From: Halomonas sp. 'Soap Lake #6'
Lineage (GTDB): Bacteria; Pseudomonadota; Gammaproteobacteria; Pseudomonadales; Halomonadaceae
Length of the DNA stretch: 64,000 nt
NCBI RefSeq assembly: GCF_003031405.1
Contig: NZ_CP020469.1
Span: 2,852,001-2,916,000, forward strand
Direction: 5' to 3'
The translations under genes and the position numbers were made by a program. The notes under the pieces were generated by a model. The model was not told the DNA's origin and searched no databases. It saw nothing but the letters and a program-made list of their open reading frames with translations. Below are positions 8,893-21,569 of this stretch, one piece after another (the stretch's first letter is position 1; each line of letters opens with the position of its first letter).

Positions 8893-8990
8893 TGGATCAC
8901 CCTAGGCAACATTGCGACAAGTAAACGATACTGTATGACAATCAAGGGACATGCAATGTGCCCTCATTATTCAACGTTAAGGAGAATCTC

Positions 8991-10163
8991 ATGCAGTGGG
9001 ATCACGAGATTATTATTGTCGGCGGCGGCATGGTGGGTGCCGCCTTGGCAGCTAGGCTAGGCCATGCGGGCATCTCTGTTGGGTTAGTGGAGCGCGGCCA
9101 CGCCCCTCCCTCACCCAACGGAGATTATGACCTACGGATCTCCTCACTCAATGCCCGCTCACTGGCGTTTGTGAAAGCGAGTGGCACCATGCTACCGGAA
9201 GAGCGCTGCTGCCCATTTCGTCATATCGATGTGGCGAATCAGGATGGCTCTGGCCACTCGCTGTTCTCTGCCCAAGACAGTGGCATGGAAGACTTTGGTA
9301 TTTTTATTGAAAATCGCACGCTGCAATATGCGCTGTGGCAGCGCCTGGAGAGTTTACCCAGCGTTACCTGCTACACCCAGTGCGTACCGCTAAGCACCAT
9401 GGCGACCAGCACCGCCCGTATGCTGGAACTGGATAACGGCCAAACCTTAAGCGCCCGTTTAATTATTGGCGCGGACGGCGCGCACTCAACACTCAGAGCA
9501 CTAGCGGGGATCAGCACCAGCAGCTACGACTACCATCAGCGGGCGTTGATTATCAATGTAGAGACCGAGCTTCCCCAACAAGATATAAGCTGGCAATGCT
9601 TCACCCCTACAGGCCCGATTGCCATGCTACCGCTACCAGGCCAGCGCGCATCACTAGTGTGGTACGACGGTGATGAAGCTTCTAAAGCACGCGAGCAACT
9701 CTCCGACGACGCACTTCAAATGGCGATAGAAACCGCTTTTCCCAAACGCCTGGGCAAGCTAACTCGCATTGTGGCCCGGGGCAGTTTTCCAATTAAACGC
9801 CAGCATGCCAAACGCTATATCAGCAAGCGCTTAGCGCTCATTGGCGACGCCGCCCATGTGGTACATCCCCTGGCAGGGCAAGGGCTTAATATCGGTCTTC
9901 ATGACGCCGACACCCTGGCCAAACTGATCATAAAAGGCCGCGACCCAGGCGACTCTATTACGCTGCACCGTTTTGAATGCCAGCGCCGCCTTGCCAACCA
10001 GGCGATGATCGCCGCGACCGACAGCTTCCACCACCTATTTACGGGTGCGAAGCCACTGCGCCAGTTAGGCGATCTCAGCCTTCACCTTGCCGAACGTATG
10101 CCGCTTGCCAAACGCATGATGATGCAGCAGGCCAATGGGCTTAACCCGTTTAAAATGCGCTAA
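8991..10163 (+). CDS. UbiH/UbiF/VisC-family FAD-dependent hydroxylase
   Basis: This 390-residue flavoprotein monooxygenase has the N-terminal Rossmann motif IIIVGGGMVGAALAARLG, the mid-protein IIGADGAHSTLR and the C-terminal GDAAHVVHPLAGQGLNIGLHDA. These mark the family that hydroxylates the ubiquinone ring. Which position it acts on (UbiF, UbiH, UbiI or UbiM type) cannot be decided here, because no other ubi gene is nearby. The start at 8991 is preferred to the GTG at 8958 because AAGGAG lies just before it and the Rossmann strand begins immediately. Confidence 0.88.
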   Translation: MQWDHEIIIVGGGMVGAALAARLGHAGISVGLVERGHAPPSPNGDYDLRISSLNARSLAFVKASGTMLPEERCCPFRHIDVANQDGSGHSLFSAQDSGMEDFGIFIENRTLQYALWQRLESLPSVTCYTQCVPLSTMATSTARMLELDNGQTLSARLIIGADGAHSTLRALAGISTSSYDYHQRALIINVETELPQQDISWQCFTPTGPIAMLPLPGQRASLVWYDGDEASKAREQLSDDALQMAIETAFPKRLGKLTRIVARGSFPIKRQHAKRYISKRLALIGDAAHVVHPLAGQGLNIGLHDADTLAKLIIKGRDPGDSITLHRFECQRRLANQAMIAATDSFHHLFTGAKPLRQLGDLSLHLAERMPLAKRMMMQQANGLNPFKMR

Positions 10164-11474: not shown

Positions 11475-11513
11475 TGATTCAGTCGTAACGCAGCCGATTG
11501 TGAAAACCCACCC

Positions 11514-11531
11514 TGTACATCATTCTGTACA
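11514..11531. promoter_or_regulatory. Two TGTACA boxes, YefM-type operator of the broken TA locus
   Basis: TGTACA occurs at 11514-11519 and 11526-11531, 12 bp apart, just before the yefM-like start. TGTACA is the known core recognised by YefM in E. coli. The same hexamer recurs upstream of the intact yefM copy. Confidence 0.6.
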
Positions 11532-11559
11532 CAAACAGCATCATGAACAGGCGTTTCCA

Positions 11560-11811
11560 ATGGATGCCATTAGCTACACTGCCGCTAGAACTAATTTAGC
11601 GAAAACAATGGAACAAGTCTGCGAAGACCATGCCCCCGTCATTATCACCCGGAGCAAATCGCAGTCCGTGGTCATGATCTCACTTGAAGATTACGACGCA
11701 TTACAAGAGACCGCCTATCTTTTGCGTGCGCCAAAAAATGCCCGTCGACTACTGGAATCCATAGTCTGGCTAGCTACTGGACTCGTCGTATCAACGAAGA
11801 GCAGAGGATGA
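11560..11811 (+). pseudogene. Truncated YefM/Phd-family antitoxin (broken TA locus)
   Basis: The first 70 or so residues (MDAISYTAARTNLAKTMEQV to ARRLLESI) form a normal YefM/Phd DNA-binding antitoxin domain. The frame then leaves the family and ends in an unrelated tail. Directly after the break, the next frame encodes the last 30 or so residues of a YoeB toxin. This shows that a deletion removed the antitoxin's toxin-binding C-terminus and the first part of yoeB. An ATG at 11500 is also in frame, but 11560 matches the family start. The N-terminal domain may still bind the operator. Confidence 0.75.
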
Positions 11812-12892: not shown

Positions 12893-13159
12893 CTAATAGT
12901 GATAACGACACGAAATGATCGTAATCGCATTATTATCAACTGCGTAGACTAATCGATTCGTATCATCTATACGTCGCGACCAAAAACCAGCTAAGTTTTC
13001 CTTTAACGGCTCTGGTTTACCAATACCTTCAAAGGGTGAGCGTCTAACGTCGTTTATAAGCTTGTTTATTCGTTTAAGCGTTTTTTTGTCCTGGGTTTGC
13101 CAATATAGGTAATCGCTCCAGGATTCGTCAGTCCATGACAGTAAACGACTACTCATCAA
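12893..13159 (-). CDS. yoeB: YoeB-family mRNA interferase toxin
   Basis: This 88-residue RelE-superfamily toxin contains the family landmarks LYWQTQDKKTLKRINKLI, PFEGIGKPEPLK and FWSRRIDDTNRLVYAV, and ends in CRYHY, which carries the catalytic His and Tyr. YoeB cleaves mRNA in the ribosome and is neutralised by YefM. Its start overlaps the last codons of the antitoxin gene, so the two are translationally coupled. ATG ATG at 13154-13159 offers two equivalent starts. Confidence 0.92.
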   Translation of the reverse strand: MMSSRLLSWTDESWSDYLYWQTQDKKTLKRINKLINDVRRSPFEGIGKPEPLKENLAGFWSRRIDDTNRLVYAVDNNAITIISCRYHY

Positions 13160-13403
13160 TCAAGTCTCTGCGGGTTACCTTACCTGCTTTGAATTGTTCA
13201 ATTGAGCGATTCAAATGCTCAGCATTCGCCGGTGAGCGCAGTAAGTGCACCGTTTCCATCAGGCTGTTGTAGTAGTCTAGCGACATAACAACAGCATCTT
13301 CCGAATCACGGCGAGTAATCACCGCTGTATCTGCGTCATTAACAACGGAATCTAATACCGCTTTCAAACTATTTCTTGCTTCTGTAAAAGACACAATTTT
13401 CAT
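13149..13403 (-). CDS. yefM: YefM-family antitoxin
   Basis: This 84-residue Phd/YefM protein runs from MKIVSFTEARNSLKAVLDSV through TRRDSEDAVVMSLDYYNSLMET to the toxin-binding tail NAEHLNRSIEQFKAGK. It neutralises YoeB and represses its own operon. It is full length, in contrast to the truncated copy at 11560. GGAGG lies before the ATG, and TGTACA boxes lie in the promoter region. Confidence 0.92.
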   Translation of the reverse strand: MKIVSFTEARNSLKAVLDSVVNDADTAVITRRDSEDAVVMSLDYYNSLMETVHLLRSPANAEHLNRSIEQFKAGKVTRRDLIDE

Positions 13404-15191: not shown

Positions 15192-16058
15192 TCACGCCAA
15201 CCCCACACAAACCAACTCCCCACCAAACCACTGCTGTTTTAACCCACGCTGTTTTTCCAGTAGCACTAAGTACGGGCGTAGTGGATGGTGGTCCGGTAGC
15301 GTGACATGGAGTTGGCGCAAACGGCGCTGGAAAGGGAGCTGTTCGGCGGGCATGTGTAATGGTGAAACGTGCTGGGTTAGCCACTCTATTTCAGGTAGCA
15401 GCAGATGTGTCGCCCCGCTATCCAGTGCTAGGGTCACGCCTTTGGGGTCAAAATCACCTGCGTAAAGGTGTGGTCGATTGGTTTTTCGCCAAGCCTTTTC
15501 CAGCTGCGCAAAGCCGCCACCATAGTGGCTGTCGCCACGGTAAACCACCAGCGGGTTGGCGTAACCGCTCAGTGCATCTATCTCTGGTGAAAACACATAG
15601 AAGCTGTCCAAGTTTTCTACCTGGACTAATGCCCCAAACGCGGCCAGCTTTAAGCTGGTTATATCAACGTCTCGAATGCTACGCGGCTCTGGCGCAAGCC
15701 ATGTGGAGGGTTGTTGCGGAAGATTGATCAACAGCCGCTTTGCACGGGGGCCCTCACGAATGCTTTTATCCTCCTCCAGCCCCTCTATTGCTTGGGCGGC
15801 GCTACTTAAACCGCTTAGCGAGTGCCCAAGCGGTGCCAAACGGTCGCTTTCCAACATGCTATTGATTTGCGCCAATAGGTTGGCGTCAAAGCGCAGCGTT
15901 TGGTTGGAAATCCACATGGTCAGATCGATATCCTTCTGGTGGCACCAAGCCACTACATCTTCTACCCACTTACTGCGCGGCTTTTCTACCAAGGACTGGC
16001 GGTTAAGCTCTCGTACAACACCATTAAGCCCGGCTCGGGCACGACCTGATAACGTCAT
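15192..16058 (-). CDS. Toprim/DUF2220-type nuclease subunit, JetD/MksG-like
   Basis: This 288-residue protein is the last gene of a four-gene SMC operon. Its C-terminal half carries a Toprim-like metal site: E148 in QVENLDSFYVF and D202/D204 in YAGDFDPKG, preceded by VVYRGDSHYGGGF. The same arrangement is seen in JetD of Wadjet and MksG, related to the Spo11/TopoVI A Toprim fold. These proteins cut DNA handed to them by the SMC motor. It is shorter than usual JetD. The start overlaps the end of the kleisin-like gene by 4 bp. Assignment rests on motifs and operon position. Confidence 0.72.
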   Translation of the reverse strand: MTLSGRARAGLNGVVRELNRQSLVEKPRSKWVEDVVAWCHQKDIDLTMWISNQTLRFDANLLAQINSMLESDRLAPLGHSLSGLSSAAQAIEGLEEDKSIREGPRAKRLLINLPQQPSTWLAPEPRSIRDVDITSLKLAAFGALVQVENLDSFYVFSPEIDALSGYANPLVVYRGDSHYGGGFAQLEKAWRKTNRPHLYAGDFDPKGVTLALDSGATHLLLPEIEWLTQHVSPLHMPAEQLPFQRRLRQLHVTLPDHHPLRPYLVLLEKQRGLKQQWFGGELVCVGLA

Positions 16059-17284
16059 ACCGCCACCGCCAGCGCTACGTCGTGAATTAGCCGCAGATCA
16101 TTGAAGGCGCTGGCTTTTGTTTCCTGTTGATGCAGCTGGAACGCCTGCTGCTCTCTGCGCGGCAGGCCTTGGTACTCGGCAATCACCTGAAACAGCCAAA
16201 TCTCTCCTGGCCACTCCAAGTGGCTATCCTTCAGGTAGGCCAGCGCGCTAACCGGCTCGGCTTGGGGCTGATCCAACACCGCGAGGTAGAAACTCTCGAC
16301 ATCTAGCTTAAGTGCTTGTTGGCGGGCAGCAGCGAGATTGTCTTCCGGCGTGAGTGTAGGCACTGCCGACTCAACCGTTTGCGCTGCGTGGCGCGGAATC
16401 GGTAACTCATGTAGTAACTCTGCCAATACTCGGCTTTCCAGCACTCGATCTAGTGCCGGGGATGCCGCTGCGCTTAATGGCGCTGCGTGGTTGAACAAGT
16501 TTGGCACCTCGCTGCGCTTGGCATAGTTGCCGGGCACAAAGCCTGGGTGTTCACGCATAAATGCCACCATGCCACTGATCAAACGGCTGCGCGCTTGCTG
16601 CTTGCGAAAACGCGCCATAAGTTCAATCAGCCGCCTCTGAACTTCCCTCAGGCTGGTGTAGTGGTGGCTTAATCGCTGCTGTAACTGGCTGATGAGTAGT
16701 TTACGCAGGCTGCCATCACTACCCACCAGCTCAATGAGCTCGTCAAAGTCGATTAGCGCCAAGCCATCCAGTAGCCGAACAATCTGCTTTTGGGCGCGGT
16801 CGTTTTCGCGGATTTTATCGTTCAGCTGGCTGACAAAGCCAAAGTCGCTATTCAACCGCTGCCAGAGGCTATCGATGGCATCAGCAAAACGGCCATTCAG
16901 GTCATCAACTTCCTGGCGCAGGCGCAACAGTTGCTGTTCCTGTCGCCAGTGCTCACCACAGCTGCGGGCTTCCCGGTAACTATCTACTAACGAGCGCACC
17001 AGCTCCAGGGTTTCCGCCACGTCAGCGTTCACATGGCGGCGAGTTTCATCGGCCAACATCTCAGCGATGAGTTCTCGCACCTTGGGCGAAAGCTTCACCC
17101 CACTCTGCTCGTCAGGCCGCCATAGCACCCGAGCGGCTAGCAACTTACGTAGCGCGCCATCGCTTAAACCTTCTAAGGGTACGTCGTCTCGGGTGTAACC
17201 CTGCATCAGTCGTTCGGCATGCTTGCCCAACAGCGCCAGCCGTTCAGCACCGGTTTTCAGCAGGCGGCTTTCCAGCTCGTTCAC
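16055..17284 (-). CDS. Kleisin-like subunit of an MksBEF/Wadjet-type SMC complex (MksF/JetA-like)
   Basis: This 409-residue, largely helical protein lies between the MksE-like and Toprim genes, with 4-bp overlaps on both sides. The N-terminal part is helical, with long heptad-like stretches around 95-250 (for example LRLRQEVDDLNGRFADAID). The C-terminal part (LDVESFYLAVLDQ, LEWPGEIWLFQVIAEY) looks like a small folded domain, as expected for a kleisin that bridges the SMC heads. Relatives are often mislabelled phosphoenolpyruvate carboxylase, but no carboxylase motif is visible. The kleisin role is inferred from context. Confidence 0.65.
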   Translation of the reverse strand: MNELESRLLKTGAERLALLGKHAERLMQGYTRDDVPLEGLSDGALRKLLAARVLWRPDEQSGVKLSPKVRELIAEMLADETRRHVNADVAETLELVRSLVDSYREARSCGEHWRQEQQLLRLRQEVDDLNGRFADAIDSLWQRLNSDFGFVSQLNDKIRENDRAQKQIVRLLDGLALIDFDELIELVGSDGSLRKLLISQLQQRLSHHYTSLREVQRRLIELMARFRKQQARSRLISGMVAFMREHPGFVPGNYAKRSEVPNLFNHAAPLSAAASPALDRVLESRVLAELLHELPIPRHAAQTVESAVPTLTPEDNLAAARQQALKLDVESFYLAVLDQPQAEPVSALAYLKDSHLEWPGEIWLFQVIAEYQGLPRREQQAFQLHQQETKASAFNDLRLIHDVALAVAV

Positions 17285-17910
17285 AGCAACGCCTCCTGGG
17301 TGCCCTCTTCGCGCTCCGCATCAATCGGCAGATTTTCCTCATCGCGGATAAAGCGCACCACTTCGATCAAGTAGTCGATTTTACCAGTGACTACAAATAC
17401 CTGGCGTTCGGTATGAGGCTGAAGCAAGTAACCATGCTCTTTTAAACGCTTAAACAGCTGCTTGACCTGAGCATCTAGTTGATCACTTTGAGAGCCAAAG
17501 AAGCTATCCGTTGCCAGCCGCTCCAAACGCTCGCGCAGGCTTTGGTTATCTTCACACTTAGCGCTGAACTCGGCGGGTTTGAGCACATCGCCAGGGGCCG
17601 CTAAGGTATCGCGACCTAACGCTTCCTGAACCAGTTGCAGCCACTCCAGCAGCGGCAACAGGCTGTTGACTGTCTCACCCAACTGGCGTGAAAGCTGGTC
17701 TCGGGCAGCTTCGTTAAGCTGCCGCCAAGCCAAGAAATAAACGCTACCTTCATCATTACTGGCCAGCCGGCGGTTGAGCGGGCGCAGGTAGCTATCGATG
17801 GCTTCACGCGTCTCTTCATTTGTTAAATGGCGGAAGGCATTTTCATCGCTTACGGCGCAGATAAACTCTCCTGCCAGCAGGCGTTCCAGTAGCGGGCCAT
17901 GTTCAATCAT
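17281..17910 (-). CDS. MksE/JetB-like (kite) subunit of the SMC complex
   Basis: This 209-residue protein has an N-terminal segment LLERLLAGEFICAVSDENAFRHL and a C-terminal winged-helix-like part (LFKRLKEHGYLLQPHTERQVFVVTG). These fit the small winged-helix subunits (MksE, DUF4194/JetB) that bind the kleisin. It starts inside the stop of the SMC gene (ATGA overlap) and ends inside the start of the kleisin-like gene. The four proteins are therefore probably made in fixed ratio. Confidence 0.68.
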   Translation of the reverse strand: MIEHGPLLERLLAGEFICAVSDENAFRHLTNEETREAIDSYLRPLNRRLASNDEGSVYFLAWRQLNEAARDQLSRQLGETVNSLLPLLEWLQLVQEALGRDTLAAPGDVLKPAEFSAKCEDNQSLRERLERLATDSFFGSQSDQLDAQVKQLFKRLKEHGYLLQPHTERQVFVVTGKIDYLIEVVRFIRDEENLPIDAEREEGTQEALL

Positions 17911-20900
17911 GCGCTTACCTCCTGCTGACGCTCTTTGATCCGCTGCGCGATGGGGCTAAGGCGTGGCTCAATACGTTTTAGCTGGCGCTGGTTGTTGCTT
18001 GCACCCCGCTCAATCAGATAGCGGTTGGCGAATAATAGCAATACGTCCGACTCTGGATTGGGGAAGGCCCCGACAATATGAATGCGGTTACTATCACAGG
18101 CGTCGAACAACTTTTCGACGTTGTGGTAGGCCAATGTACCGATTTCATCGATAGGCCAGTGGATAGCGATTTGTGCATCGCCACGCAACAGCCGTGTAAA
18201 CGCCAGCAGAAACTTACACAGAATCAGGTAGGCCATACCGTGGCTGGAGGACTCCAGCAATTGGCGGTCATTCTTGATCACCAAATCCGTGCCGCCTTCG
18301 TTTAAGTGCAGTTCCAACCGCAGCAGGCTTTCAAAGCTGTACTGTTGGTCACTGCGCAGCAAATCGACAACATCCGCCAGGGCGTTGAGATAATCATCGC
18401 TGGGCAGTGCCTGTCCGGATTCCCGCCACGCTTTATAACGCTGAGCGAACAGTTTCAGCGGCTCCCAGAACCCTAGCTCGTCGATGGTGGACTGAATGCG
18501 TACTTCCGCCTTGCTGATGCCCTCTAATCGTAGGTCGTCGGCCACCTCATCGGAAAGTCGACGGCTCTGGGCACTAATGCGCCGATTAAGATCGCGGAAA
18601 ACAATAAAGAACTTATCCAGGTCATCGCTTAAATTGCGTCCTTCCTGAATCAGTTGCTGCTGTTGATCTTCTAGCAGTTTTAGCATGCCACGTAGCAGTG
18701 GCAGTAGCAGCCGAGGGCTATCATTTGGCAGCTTTTCACGCTCGCTTTGCAGTGCATCAGCAAAGCCGCTACTGGCATCTTTAATCAGCTGGCTTTCCAC
18801 CTCCAGGCAGCCCCGTCGCAGCTGTTCTAGCTGCTGATGACGGCTCGCCAACGCCTGACGGGCACGCTCGATACGTTCATCCATATCACCAACAGTGGCT
18901 TCTGCAGGAGCACTTTCTGCCACCAGCTCCAGGCTTTCCAGTTGTGTCAGTAGTGGTGTGAGCGCCTCCAGGCTACCGTGGGCATGGCTGCGCTGAGTTT
19001 TTAACTCATTAACTGCGCGTTGATACGCCTCCCTTGCAGCGTGAAAGTCATTTTTCAAACGGGCTTTGTCACGCTTGAGTTGTTGATCCTGCTGCTCCAG
19101 CTCTGCTTCCTGGGCGACTAGCTGCGGCTTATGCTGCCCCCACTCCACACGCATAAAGCGTTGGTACTCGGTGAGTTCTTCCTGGCGAGCAGCTGTTTTA
19201 CGGATGCGTTCACTCTGCTGCTCTAAACGCGTTTTGGTGGATTTTAACTGCGCGGGGTCAACGCCCTGCTCGGCAAGCTCCTGACTAAAGGCTGCTTCTA
19301 GTTCGCTACGCTGGCGTTGGTGTTCAGCATTGGCATCGTTGAGCTGCTGCTTATACTGGCGCAGCTGCGCATCCAGGCTATCCAGCTGGCTTTGGGCGTC
19401 GGCTTTTAGCTCTAGCAGTTGACCTTGATGGGTCTCGGCAAGAGCAGCAAGCGCCTGCTGTTTTTCTGCACGTAGTTCGGCTTGTGCCTGCTCCTGGCGA
19501 GCCAACGCGGCTTGGTGATCCGCCCGCCGTTGCTGCTGGCGTTTGGCATGGCGCTCATGCTGCTGGCGGCGAGCCTCAAGGGCATACTCCACTTCCTGTT
19601 CGGCGCGTTGATGGGCCATGCGCGCCTGATCTTGAGTCTCATCAGCCTGCTGCACCCGCTCGTTATGCTGCTTCAGGGCTTTTTCTGCGGCAAGGCACTC
19701 AGACTGGGCACGCTGCTTGGCACTGTCGGCATCTTCAATGGCGGCTAAGAGGCTGGCTTCGTCTTGGGCGTAATCAGGCAGGGCAATCGCGCTTAGGTCC
19801 AACGCCAGGCCGAATAGGTCCTCGCTTGCCCCTGCGGCTAACTGAGGGGCGAGGTCTCGCCGCTCAAGCAGCTCTGGTGCGATCACCTTGCCAAGTTGCT
19901 GCTCCCAACCAGGACGGTGGTAGCGTAGGAAATGACGCAGACTGCCCTGTTCGGGATCACGTTGCTGATAAAGTGCAAAACAGTGCTGCTCAGCGCGCTC
20001 ACGCTGCTGACGACACTGCACCAACTGCTGCTCGGCGGACGCCCGCTCCCGTTTGTGGCTTTCAAGCTCACGGCGCAGTGCTTCGAGGGTTGCAGCCGCC
20101 GCGCTGCGTTCCTGCTGCGACTGATCTAATCGCGCCTGGGCCAGCTCAGCCTCTTGGAGCTCTTCAGCAGTTTGGCTGGGCATGGCCAGTTGCGCTTTCA
20201 GCTCGGCCAGTTGCTCTACGCCCAGCTCTAACTGAGCCTGATACTCCCCCTCAAGGCGTTGGCGTTCCTGCTGATAGCGCTCATTGTGCTGCTGCTCGAC
20301 CTGCCACTGCTGCTCACGGCGCTCGGCTTTTTCCTCGGTCAGAGCATCAATCAGCTCCTGCGTTTCCTGGGTTTGCCGGGCTAACACTTCCGAAAGCTCG
20401 CGTAGCCTGCCATCCAGACGTGCCTGGCTCTCTTTCACCGCTTCCTGCATTACTTGCAGGTGCTGCTGGAGCTGGTCACGCTGCTCACGCCACTGAGGCA
20501 GCGCGTTGATATCCCTCTCCAAGCCGGGCATGTCAGCATCGGCGTAGTGCTCAAACTGCGTTTGCAGGTCGTTCAGGCGGCGCTGAGTGTGCTGTAGGTC
20601 ACTCGTCAATTCACTATGGCGATCATTCAAAGCATCCCGCTGCCGGGTGTAATCGCTCTCACGCTGCTGGAACTCGCGCTGAAGACGATTCAACTCACTA
20701 TCTAGATCCGCGATGCGCTGCTCGACCTTCTGGTGGTCGGCGCTTAACTGCGGCTTGAGCTGCCAGAGAGTGGTCTCAAGCTGAGCCAGCTCGCGGTCGA
20801 TGCCGCCAAGTTTGGTTAGAGATACCTGTAGCGGCTCCAGGCGCATCGACTGACGCATCTGGGCAATCCACTCCCGCGCTTTGGCACTACGAATTCGCGT

Positions 20901-21569
20901 AACGGGTAGCTCGACGCCATCTTCTTCAAAAATCGCCGCTAGCATAGTTTTGAGGGTGTCCATCTTGCCCTCTTTGGCATGCACAGCGGAGACAAGCTTT
21001 TCGATATGACGAATACGCCGCTCGGGGTTTACTAAGCTAAATTGCGCTGCAATCTGGCGCAGTTTTAGGCCATCACGGCTATTACCATGGAGCTGGGTAA
21101 AGTCGTTTTGGATCACCGAACGAAACTCTGAAGTGGCACCCAGCTTGGATGAAACGGGCACCCCGCTTCGGCGCAGCCCGCTAGACCACTGTGCGTACTC
21201 CAATGCCAGAGGGCCTTGCTCGGTCTCGATCAGATAATCTTCTGGCCGGTAAGGTGCGCCAACAAACCGATACTCCACACCACCTTCTGCTTTGCGCGTT
21301 AGCACGGCTTGGCAGATGTTGCCCGCCTCGCGACGATATTCGTATATCAGGTAACTATTGCGTGTCGGCAAATAGAACGCATCAAACTTCATGCGGGTTT
21401 TTGGAACTACTTTATTAGGCAGTTCGCCATAAAACACTGGCACCAAGCGTTGGAGCGTGGTTTTTCCCGAGGCGTTGGTGCCACAAATATTGGTGTGGCC
21501 ATCCACACTTAACTCGACCACTCCCGTTAAGTGGCCGTGAATCATAACGATGCGTAGCAGATGCGCCAT
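17907..21569 (-). CDS. SMC-like ATPase (MksB/JetC-like, DUF3584 type)
   Basis: This 1220-residue protein is an SMC/Rad50-type ATPase. The Walker A motif is GTNASGKTT at 30-38. A very long Gln/Glu/Arg/Ala-rich coiled coil runs from about 260 to 1000 with a less regular hinge region around 560-640. The ABC signature region is SSSHGMAYLIL near 1107, and Walker B is AIHWPIDEIGTL with D1141-E1142. Such proteins extrude DNA loops. With kleisin, kite and Toprim partners they form MksBEFG/Wadjet complexes that cleave small circular DNA. It is first in the operon, and AAGGA precedes its ATG. Confidence 0.88.
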   Translation of the reverse strand: MAHLLRIVMIHGHLTGVVELSVDGHTNICGTNASGKTTLQRLVPVFYGELPNKVVPKTRMKFDAFYLPTRNSYLIYEYRREAGNICQAVLTRKAEGGVEYRFVGAPYRPEDYLIETEQGPLALEYAQWSSGLRRSGVPVSSKLGATSEFRSVIQNDFTQLHGNSRDGLKLRQIAAQFSLVNPERRIRHIEKLVSAVHAKEGKMDTLKTMLAAIFEEDGVELPVTRIRSAKAREWIAQMRQSMRLEPLQVSLTKLGGIDRELAQLETTLWQLKPQLSADHQKVEQRIADLDSELNRLQREFQQRESDYTRQRDALNDRHSELTSDLQHTQRRLNDLQTQFEHYADADMPGLERDINALPQWREQRDQLQQHLQVMQEAVKESQARLDGRLRELSEVLARQTQETQELIDALTEEKAERREQQWQVEQQHNERYQQERQRLEGEYQAQLELGVEQLAELKAQLAMPSQTAEELQEAELAQARLDQSQQERSAAAATLEALRRELESHKRERASAEQQLVQCRQQRERAEQHCFALYQQRDPEQGSLRHFLRYHRPGWEQQLGKVIAPELLERRDLAPQLAAGASEDLFGLALDLSAIALPDYAQDEASLLAAIEDADSAKQRAQSECLAAEKALKQHNERVQQADETQDQARMAHQRAEQEVEYALEARRQQHERHAKRQQQRRADHQAALARQEQAQAELRAEKQQALAALAETHQGQLLELKADAQSQLDSLDAQLRQYKQQLNDANAEHQRQRSELEAAFSQELAEQGVDPAQLKSTKTRLEQQSERIRKTAARQEELTEYQRFMRVEWGQHKPQLVAQEAELEQQDQQLKRDKARLKNDFHAAREAYQRAVNELKTQRSHAHGSLEALTPLLTQLESLELVAESAPAEATVGDMDERIERARQALASRHQQLEQLRRGCLEVESQLIKDASSGFADALQSEREKLPNDSPRLLLPLLRGMLKLLEDQQQQLIQEGRNLSDDLDKFFIVFRDLNRRISAQSRRLSDEVADDLRLEGISKAEVRIQSTIDELGFWEPLKLFAQRYKAWRESGQALPSDDYLNALADVVDLLRSDQQYSFESLLRLELHLNEGGTDLVIKNDRQLLESSSHGMAYLILCKFLLAFTRLLRGDAQIAIHWPIDEIGTLAYHNVEKLFDACDSNRIHIVGAFPNPESDVLLLFANRYLIERGASNNQRQLKRIEPRLSPIAQRIKERQQEVSA

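Follow-up and report, generated by a model that had tools for sequence, protein, structure and literature searches.

Parts of three reports (PMC10586767, PMC10123090 and PMC7485682) describe the cleavage or limitation of plasmids by JetABCD/MksBEFG and the organisation of the chromosome by MksBEF of Pseudomonas aeruginosa. In the part of PMC10123090 that deals with Corynebacterium glutamicum, the operon is given as mksFEBG and MksG as a protein with DUF3322 and DUF2220. The genes are arranged as kleisin-KITE-SMC-JetD in Wadjet types I and II and as mukF-mukE-mukB in Escherichia coli. The window studied here, a 64,000-nucleotide stretch of Halomonas sp. 'Soap Lake #6', holds on its minus strand (positions 15192 to 21569) an operon with the same four subunit kinds as Wadjet types I and II, namely a MukB-like SMC, a KITE, a kleisin and a Toprim protein of the topoisomerase VI-A family, but in the order SMC-KITE-kleisin-Toprim. 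A MukB-like SMC, an MksE-type KITE and a kleisin in one operon are also what the broad MksBEFG/MksBEF superfamily has in common with it. A preliminary description had proposed a MksBEFG/Wadjet-like system, and the kinds of subunit were borne out by Pfam, profile and fold matches. Judged by its sequence, the operon is neither canonical MksBEFG nor a PADLOC-recognised Wadjet; it appears to be a separate DUF3584 branch. No description of the family was found in the literature searched, though Petrushenko 2011 may already contain relatives, and no paper on DUF7281, to which the Toprim protein belongs, was found there. Among the literature matches listed, DUF3584 appeared in single mentions under titles that are not on an SMC-KITE-kleisin-Toprim system, and the one paper naming both Wadjet and Halomonas was on marine biofilms.

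The four-gene operon was confirmed as real by open reading frames at these coordinates and three 4-bp overlaps. Gene 1 encodes the SMC/MukB-like ATPase of the DUF3584 family (17907 to 21569, 1220 aa, ATG start). It is followed on the same minus strand by the KITE (MksE-like) subunit (17281 to 17910, 209 aa, ATG start), the start of which overlaps the SMC stop by 4 bp, the kleisin (MukF/JetA-like) subunit (16055 to 17284, 409 aa, GTG start), with a 4-bp overlap with the KITE gene, and a short Toprim (topoisomerase VI-A/JetD-like) subunit of DUF7281, a predicted nuclease (15192 to 16058, 288 aa, ATG start), with a 4-bp overlap with the kleisin gene. The overlaps, which read ATGA, GTGA and ATGA, are as reported at the outset except for their number, since four genes have three of them. 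The arrangement is not a chance one because the same gene order recurs in dozens of loci, the Toprim residues E148, D202 and D204 are invariant and dN/dS is below 0.5 in all genes and pairs with a computable ratio.

The SMC matches PF12128 (DUF3584) over residues 8-1187 with 762.7 bits (curated Pfam cut-off 31), while the MukB family PF04310 is absent from its Pfam matches at E up to 1. Profile-profile comparison matched it with MksB (99.1%) and JetC (98.4%) and weakly with MukB (45.9%, the MukB row having ended at residue 1391). Both ATPase motifs of the preliminary description were found in the 1220-aa frame: Walker A, GTNASGKTT, at residues 30-38 (21456 to 21482, minus strand), and the Walker B with DE, IHWPIDEIG (1136-1144), which together with the ABC signature SSSHGMAYL (1107-1115) spans 18138 to 18251 on the same strand. 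Across 12 diverse SMCs, G34, N36, G39, K40 and T41 of Walker A (first-row numbering), the W, D and E of Walker B and one S and G of the signature are invariant. In the head tree of 53 rows, from which the most divergent member (L102) is absent, the SMC heads group together as a clade that holds none of the JetC, MksB and MukB rows included. This DUF3584 clade leaves out the MksB rows with a support of 99/100, the MksB rows being three in number and so named from an MksE-type neighbour gene; these comparators are 917-943 aa long, against 1220 aa here. The separate SMC branch suspected from the first reading finds support in the head phylogeny with these rows.

The second gene, initially read as MksE-like, passes the Pfam MksE model PF21980 (33.6 bits, cut-off 27) and has weak profile matches to JetB (57.6%) and MksE (51.8%), in agreement with a KITE. 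A search of PDB sequences with all four proteins returned nothing meaningful. For the third gene, Pfam, PADLOC, the PDB sequence search and profile comparison gave no support for a kleisin by sequence alone; this failure is uninformative since a control JetA failed as well against MukF and MksF. The kleisin assignment, made earlier and now upheld, comes from the predicted structure. Its first Foldseek row is a chain of a JetABCD core. Seven of the eight top structural rows are chains from MukBEF/MukEF entries with the length of MukF, and we take them to be MukF; on one chain of this length, residues 1-408 of the model aligned with residues 8-440. The kleisin model resembles its counterpart in E. 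coli MukBEF end to end, whereas the gene order differs and the SMC lies outside the MukB clade.

The model of the Toprim protein matches topoisomerase VI-A, Spo11, JetD and MksG and is set clearly apart from other Toprims in structure comparison, while the N-terminal ~100 residues lie outside the aligned ranges listed for topoisomerase VI-A/Spo11. The catalytic-glutamate motif VENLDSF (residues 147-153, with E148; 15600 to 15620, minus strand) and the metal-binding motif GDFDPKG (residues 201-207, with D202 and D204; 15438 to 15458, minus strand) were both located, and they align with the EN and D-x-D motifs of JetD. All 40 Toprim proteins aligned have E148, N149, D202, D204 and G207. The glutamate and the DFD pair were read correctly from the sequence, and the comparison with JetD, set beforehand as the test of the Toprim site, gave a match. 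In contrast to topoisomerase VI-A/Spo11, the protein is encoded with an SMC core. Its shortness, also remarked upon earlier, holds against both comparator JetDs (288 aa versus 388 and 429 aa) and, together with the leading SMC gene, distinguishes the operon from C. glutamicum MksBEFG. DUF3322 is absent from the Toprim protein of the window and from three relatives, with a type I JetD as control giving 195.3 bits. The 429-aa JetD, from a DUF5716-type locus, is likewise without DUF3322, so its absence separates the Toprim protein from type I only.

PADLOC recognised no system in the operon, with neither JetA nor JetB matched at E up to 1 and with best Jet scores of 20.6 bits (JetC1) and 13.5 bits (JetD3); Jet matches of ten proteins of relatives did not exceed 25 bits with these models. 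The family is missed by the defence-gene models used. A clear Wadjet type III locus was not found: 16 genomes out of 249 from the phylum had only weak JetD3 matches, none above 29.9 bits. A one-pattern scan of the genomes of 84,980 species gave 440 confirmed stretches, the best 80 of which, ranked by similarity to a methanotroph SMC, are the named loci; Halomonas-type genomes are under-sampled among them as a consequence of this ranking. All 80 are gammaproteobacterial. The SMC gene comes first in every one, and the order SMC-KITE-kleisin-Toprim was seen at every locus examined, while the JetA kleisin comes first in all eight comparator loci with a PADLOC-recognised JetA (five DUF3375 and three DUF5716, the latter counted here as type II although the PADLOC label is JetA1 for all eight). 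The order is unusual, as had been claimed.

The Toprim gene is often missing, in many parts of the SMC tree, while the SMC-KITE-kleisin core is kept. On a 134-row tree, its presence or absence changes at least 17 times, with 14 changes forced by supported branches and an average of 43 for shuffled labels. In this scoring, L075, with a split Toprim gene, was taken as bearing and L123 as lacking, though 100 N follow its kleisin gene, while L133 and L136, the contigs of which end early, were left unscored; 16-17 changes were obtained once doubtful rows were dropped or re-scored. Some of the changes are recent enough that 36-38 codons from the start of the nuclease gene are still in place. The core is under strong purifying selection after Toprim deletion in two pairs sharing a deletion (L077/L081 and L080/L083), with core dN/dS of 0.03-0.07; these are the only clean pairs, since the deletion junction of L113 differs from that of L077 and L081. 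Six Toprim-less pairs from Alteromonas, Shewanella and Catenovulum gave 0-0.053 wherever the ratio was computable; in three of seven Toprim-less pairs, dS exceeded 1.8 or could not be computed. Higher values were obtained for the Toprim-bearing Halomonas-type pairs L091/L108 (0.09-0.12) and L110/L107 and L110/L111 (0.11-0.23), and 0.16-0.35 for the Toprim-less L082/L084 and L082/L085, which have no proven single shared deletion. Among pairs that bear it, the Toprim gene evolves faster than the core in nine of ten, the exception being L116/L124, in which its dN/dS equals that of the SMC or the kleisin.

We consider it probable, from the analysis as a whole, that the operon encodes a second condensin of MukBEF/Wadjet type, from the DUF3584 branch, with a detachable nuclease, which would act as a Wadjet-like cutter of circular DNA when the Toprim subunit is present. 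As suggested by the set of subunits, SMC, KITE and kleisin would assemble into an ATP-driven ring able to load on DNA and extrude it; the Toprim subunit would dock on this motor and, in the manner of Wadjet, cut once extrusion encounters the geometry of a small closed circle. Small plasmids would be lost, while chromosomes and large replicons would escape. Without the Toprim subunit, the motor would still work, its likeliest role being to organise the chromosome alongside SMC-ScpAB. Such three-gene relatives would resemble P. aeruginosa MksBEF as a second condensin beside SMC-ScpAB without a nuclease, though the gene order there is opposite and the SMC falls in a different clade from the three MksB rows. 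The host genome also encodes SMC (1043.9 bits) and ScpA, and ScpA is found in 24 of 25 other carriers and MukB in none of the 25. The repeated absence and faster evolution of the Toprim gene fit an accessory effector. As to whether the operon excludes plasmids or organises the chromosome, the frequent absence of Toprim beside a conserved core points to probably both.

A purely chromosomal condensin, whose Toprim protein would work on the host chromosome as a topoisomerase-like or structure-specific enzyme (resolving or cutting entangled DNA, for example) and be dispensable in some lineages, appears unlikely. It would account for a core conserved without Toprim, for an operon carried by 43 of the genus's 50 genomes at a conserved locus (at least one flanking gene is common to the window and 18 of 20 loci), and for SMC-ScpAB alongside, as in P. 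aeruginosa. It sits poorly with the accessory behaviour of the Toprim gene, with JetD and MksG, both plasmid nucleases, among the nearest Toprim folds, though topoisomerase VI is one too, and with four-gene copies on plasmids and on one phage record. The four plasmids checked are large replicons (110-341 kb), which is what a system aimed at small circles would predict, and the phage record is 209 kb long. In viral contigs, 402 pattern matches gave none confirmed. One plasmid record, an Enterobacter IncC plasmid, has the operon close to genes for nucleotidyltransferase, ThiF, Mov34 and SAVED proteins that presumably resemble another defence system. This neighbourhood and the patchy Toprim gene would suit a defence against phages or mobile elements in general, triggered by something other than small circular DNA and with the Toprim-less core as silencer or decoy. 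We regard this as improbable, given that PADLOC recognised no system and that a decoy role would hardly account for the three-gene forms retained through the Alteromonas and Shewanella clades. A Lamassu-like or Rad50-like ABC system in place of an SMC-kleisin condensin is scarcely credible: weak LmuB matches in the coiled coil (22.6 bits, and 25.9 bits for one relative) are set against the full-length DUF3584 match, the MksB and JetC profile matches of the SMC heads and the kleisin fold match, and it was rejected because the operon also holds genes for a KITE and a MukF/JetA-like kleisin.

The condensin with a detachable nuclease, our preferred reading, can be extended more tentatively to a dual-use family. 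The DUF3584 motor would then be a chromosome organiser by default, converted to a circular-DNA nuclease by a small, exchangeable topoisomerase VI-A-like subunit, and repeated, in part recent, loss of this subunit would represent defence complexes turning into housekeeping condensins; large plasmids, along with at least one large phage, might also employ the four-gene form to fend off smaller circular competitors. Whether a defence SMC became a chromosome organiser or was an organiser all along can be tested directly in Halomonas-type bacteria that are close relatives, as the family combines many separate Toprim changes, some of them recent, with a motor still under purifying selection. Two minor observations concern the gene records of relatives. 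The Toprim gene of G102 is a single open frame with an internal gap. The kleisin-like protein had been said to be commonly misnamed; among the 120 kleisin relatives listed, with their names truncated, one bears a wrong name ('Phosphoenolpyruvate carboxylase', P0077), and several others are named 'DUF3375 domain-containing'.

The four genes of the operon, encoding SMC (DUF3584), KITE, kleisin and Toprim (DUF7281) proteins, lie at 15192-21569 of the window (itself 2852001-2916000 within one 4.80-Mb contig), in agreement with the preliminary description; they are on the minus strand and their junctions are ATGA/GTGA/ATGA. The unusual gene order claimed in that description was likewise borne out: the SMC gene comes first here, whereas the order is kleisin-KITE-SMC in all eight comparator Wadjet loci having a PADLOC JetA, with KITE and SMC recognised in these from position and length. 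PADLOC gave no JetA or JetB match and weak JetC1 and JetD3 matches for the operon proteins, and no Jet match above 25 bits for relatives' proteins (3 SMC, 3 Toprim, 2 kleisin, 2 KITE). Another difference is that type I JetD has a DUF3322 half, which is missing from the 288-aa Toprim protein of the window; JetD of a DUF5716-type locus also lacks a DUF3322 match, yet is longer (429 aa).

The proposal of a separate SMC branch found support in a tree of 53 SMC heads (38 DUF3584, seven DUF3375-type JetC, two of these assigned from position alone, three DUF5716-type JetC, three MksB, MukB and the host SMC). The DUF3584 heads are split off from all others by one branch with a support of 99/100, present in 200 of the 200 bootstrap trees counted, while relations between the families are unreadable from this tree because of very long inter-family branches, flagged by the tree program.

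The window's family, which as grouped here apparently takes in Marinospirillum- and Oceanospirillum-type genomes too, is represented by 201 genomes; DUF3584 exceeded the cut-off in 91 of them, one of which (G183) has a short fragment. This piece, with an SMC Walker A motif at about 8944-9336 of locus L114 and no other operon genes found nearby, is probably a decayed copy. For the other 90 genomes, a tally compiled by hand gave a Toprim gene in 77, none or a start fragment only in 12 and a split gene in one (G178). Of 50 genomes from the window's genus, 43 carry the SMC gene. The operon is probably ancestral there, since four SMC-less genomes retain Toprim remnants: G102 (L281:10118-11340) an open frame of 287 codons that shows an internal gap when aligned to the profile and directly follows a kleisin fragment, and G117, G142 and G168 fragments. 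At least one flanking gene is common to the window and 18 of 20 same-genus loci (exceptions L076 and L066); in other genera the flanking genes are different. The nearest named relative of the window kleisin, among the matches listed, is from Vreelandella venusta (91% identical), which places the host among Halomonas-type bacteria.

Class-wide, 8 of 321 genomes, the window's own among them, exceeded the DUF3584 cut-off. When the genomes of 84,980 species were scanned with one pattern, 440 stretches were confirmed, of which the best 80 were kept; all 80 have the order SMC-KITE-kleisin and, judged by their titles, are gammaproteobacterial. A Toprim gene follows the kleisin gene in 32 of these 80 (in two pieces in L118) and is missing in 48, of which L133 and L136 end at a contig end and L123 enters an assembly gap; it was not found after kleisin in the remaining ones. 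As the Ectothiorhodospira locus L158 sits among Halomonas-type rows of the 134-row SMC tree described below, some horizontal transfer is suggested. Certain genomes within the window's family (loci L094, L095, L096, L104, L105 and L066) have a second, distant four-gene subtype, with an SMC about 25% identical to that of the window and a stronger DUF7281 match.

Toprim presence or absence was mapped on a quickly built SMC tree with 134 rows, of which 132 were scored (75 with, 57 without). This trait requires no fewer than 17 changes, supported branches forcing 14 of these, vs a mean of 43 with shuffled labels; the minimum is 16 or 17 when the doubtful rows L075 and L123 are left out or scored anew. 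Losses are directly visible in two pairs of loci. In L080 and L083 the Toprim gene is reduced to its first 36-38 codons by a deletion whose junction is apparently common to both, and L077 and L081 have another junction in common. At the missing gene's place in the latter (L077:11066-11488, L081:11066-11488) an ORF of 140 aa, unrelated and by eye resembling a globin, overlaps the kleisin stop. Toprim 3'-half fragments are dispersed or duplicated in the same-genus genomes G178 (L075:129-7523), G117, G142 and G168; L075 has a 116-bp repeat (80%) and, between the two Toprim parts, a 1324-aa predicted protein without assigned family. The gene's 3' end may serve as a site of insertion.

The core, SMC, KITE and kleisin, persists without Toprim. 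Its dN/dS values are 0.068, 0.038 and 0.033 in L080/L083 and 0.054, 0.031 and 0.028 in L077/L081, and 0-0.053 wherever computable in six pairs lacking Toprim, from Alteromonas, Shewanella and Catenovulum, with dS near saturation in two; in a seventh pair dS is saturated throughout. In nine of ten Toprim-bearing pairs Toprim evolves faster than the core. Some Halomonas-type pairs have higher core dN/dS, up to 0.35, which weakens the selection argument there; we suspect that dS is underestimated in these.

What has been observed, as a base for a mechanism, is the set of subunits, their constant gene order, the active-site residues and the retention of the core where Toprim is absent. By analogy with Wadjet and MksBEFG, as presented in PMC10586767 and PMC10123090, the core would extrude DNA in an ATP-driven manner, the complex would recognise small circles and a Toprim dimer would cleave them, while the core alone would serve a chromosome role by analogy with MksBEF (PMC7485682). 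A published parallel is P. aeruginosa, described there as having MksBEF alongside SMC-ScpAB. The host here has a canonical SMC (1043.9 bits) and ScpA in addition to the operon, and among 25 genomes picked from the 80 named carriers ScpA was found in 24 and MukB in none. We consider rather probable the combined reading of a small-circle cutter with Toprim and a chromosome role for the core alone. A purely chromosomal function of the operon is unlikely, and a defence system responding to another trigger seems slightly less likely still.

A complete operon of this family, with all four genes, is also present in the 209-kb record of Dolichospermum phage Dfl-JY45 (L279:2687-9042; PP438435.1 86907-93262), annotated merely as hypothetical, with scores of 920, 212, 315 and 157 bits for SMC, KITE, kleisin and Toprim. 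Of ten proteins checked, two match phage families (exonuclease/helicase; methyltransferase) and none structural ones, so the record may be mis-assembled; three queries found no further copies among 50,697 phage records. A kleisin search of plasmid records gave four matches (110, 196, 213 and 341 kb), each with all four genes in the window's order. With a plasmid kleisin as query, ten plasmid records were obtained, none smaller than 109.8 kb and five of about 0.9 Mb, the operon layout being read in four. An operon gene is broken in two of the four operon-bearing records: the SMC and kleisin genes are in pieces in that of V. campbellii, and ISSod4 interrupts the SMC gene in the Enterobacter hormaechei IncC plasmid (L275, NZ_OR497351.1 137667-150731).

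Several neighbouring genes were observed as well. In the window, a GntR/FCD regulator gene (PF00392, PF07729; 21677-22354) lies on the SMC gene's strand, 107 bp upstream of its start. Two small overlapping genes at 12893-13403 (minus strand) presumably resemble a YefM/YoeB-type toxin-antitoxin pair, and we take an ORF at 11500-11811 to be an additional YefM-like one. On the E. hormaechei plasmid, nucleotidyltransferase, ThiF, Mov34 and SAVED genes, a set which we take to be CBASS-like, are located a few genes downstream of the operon.
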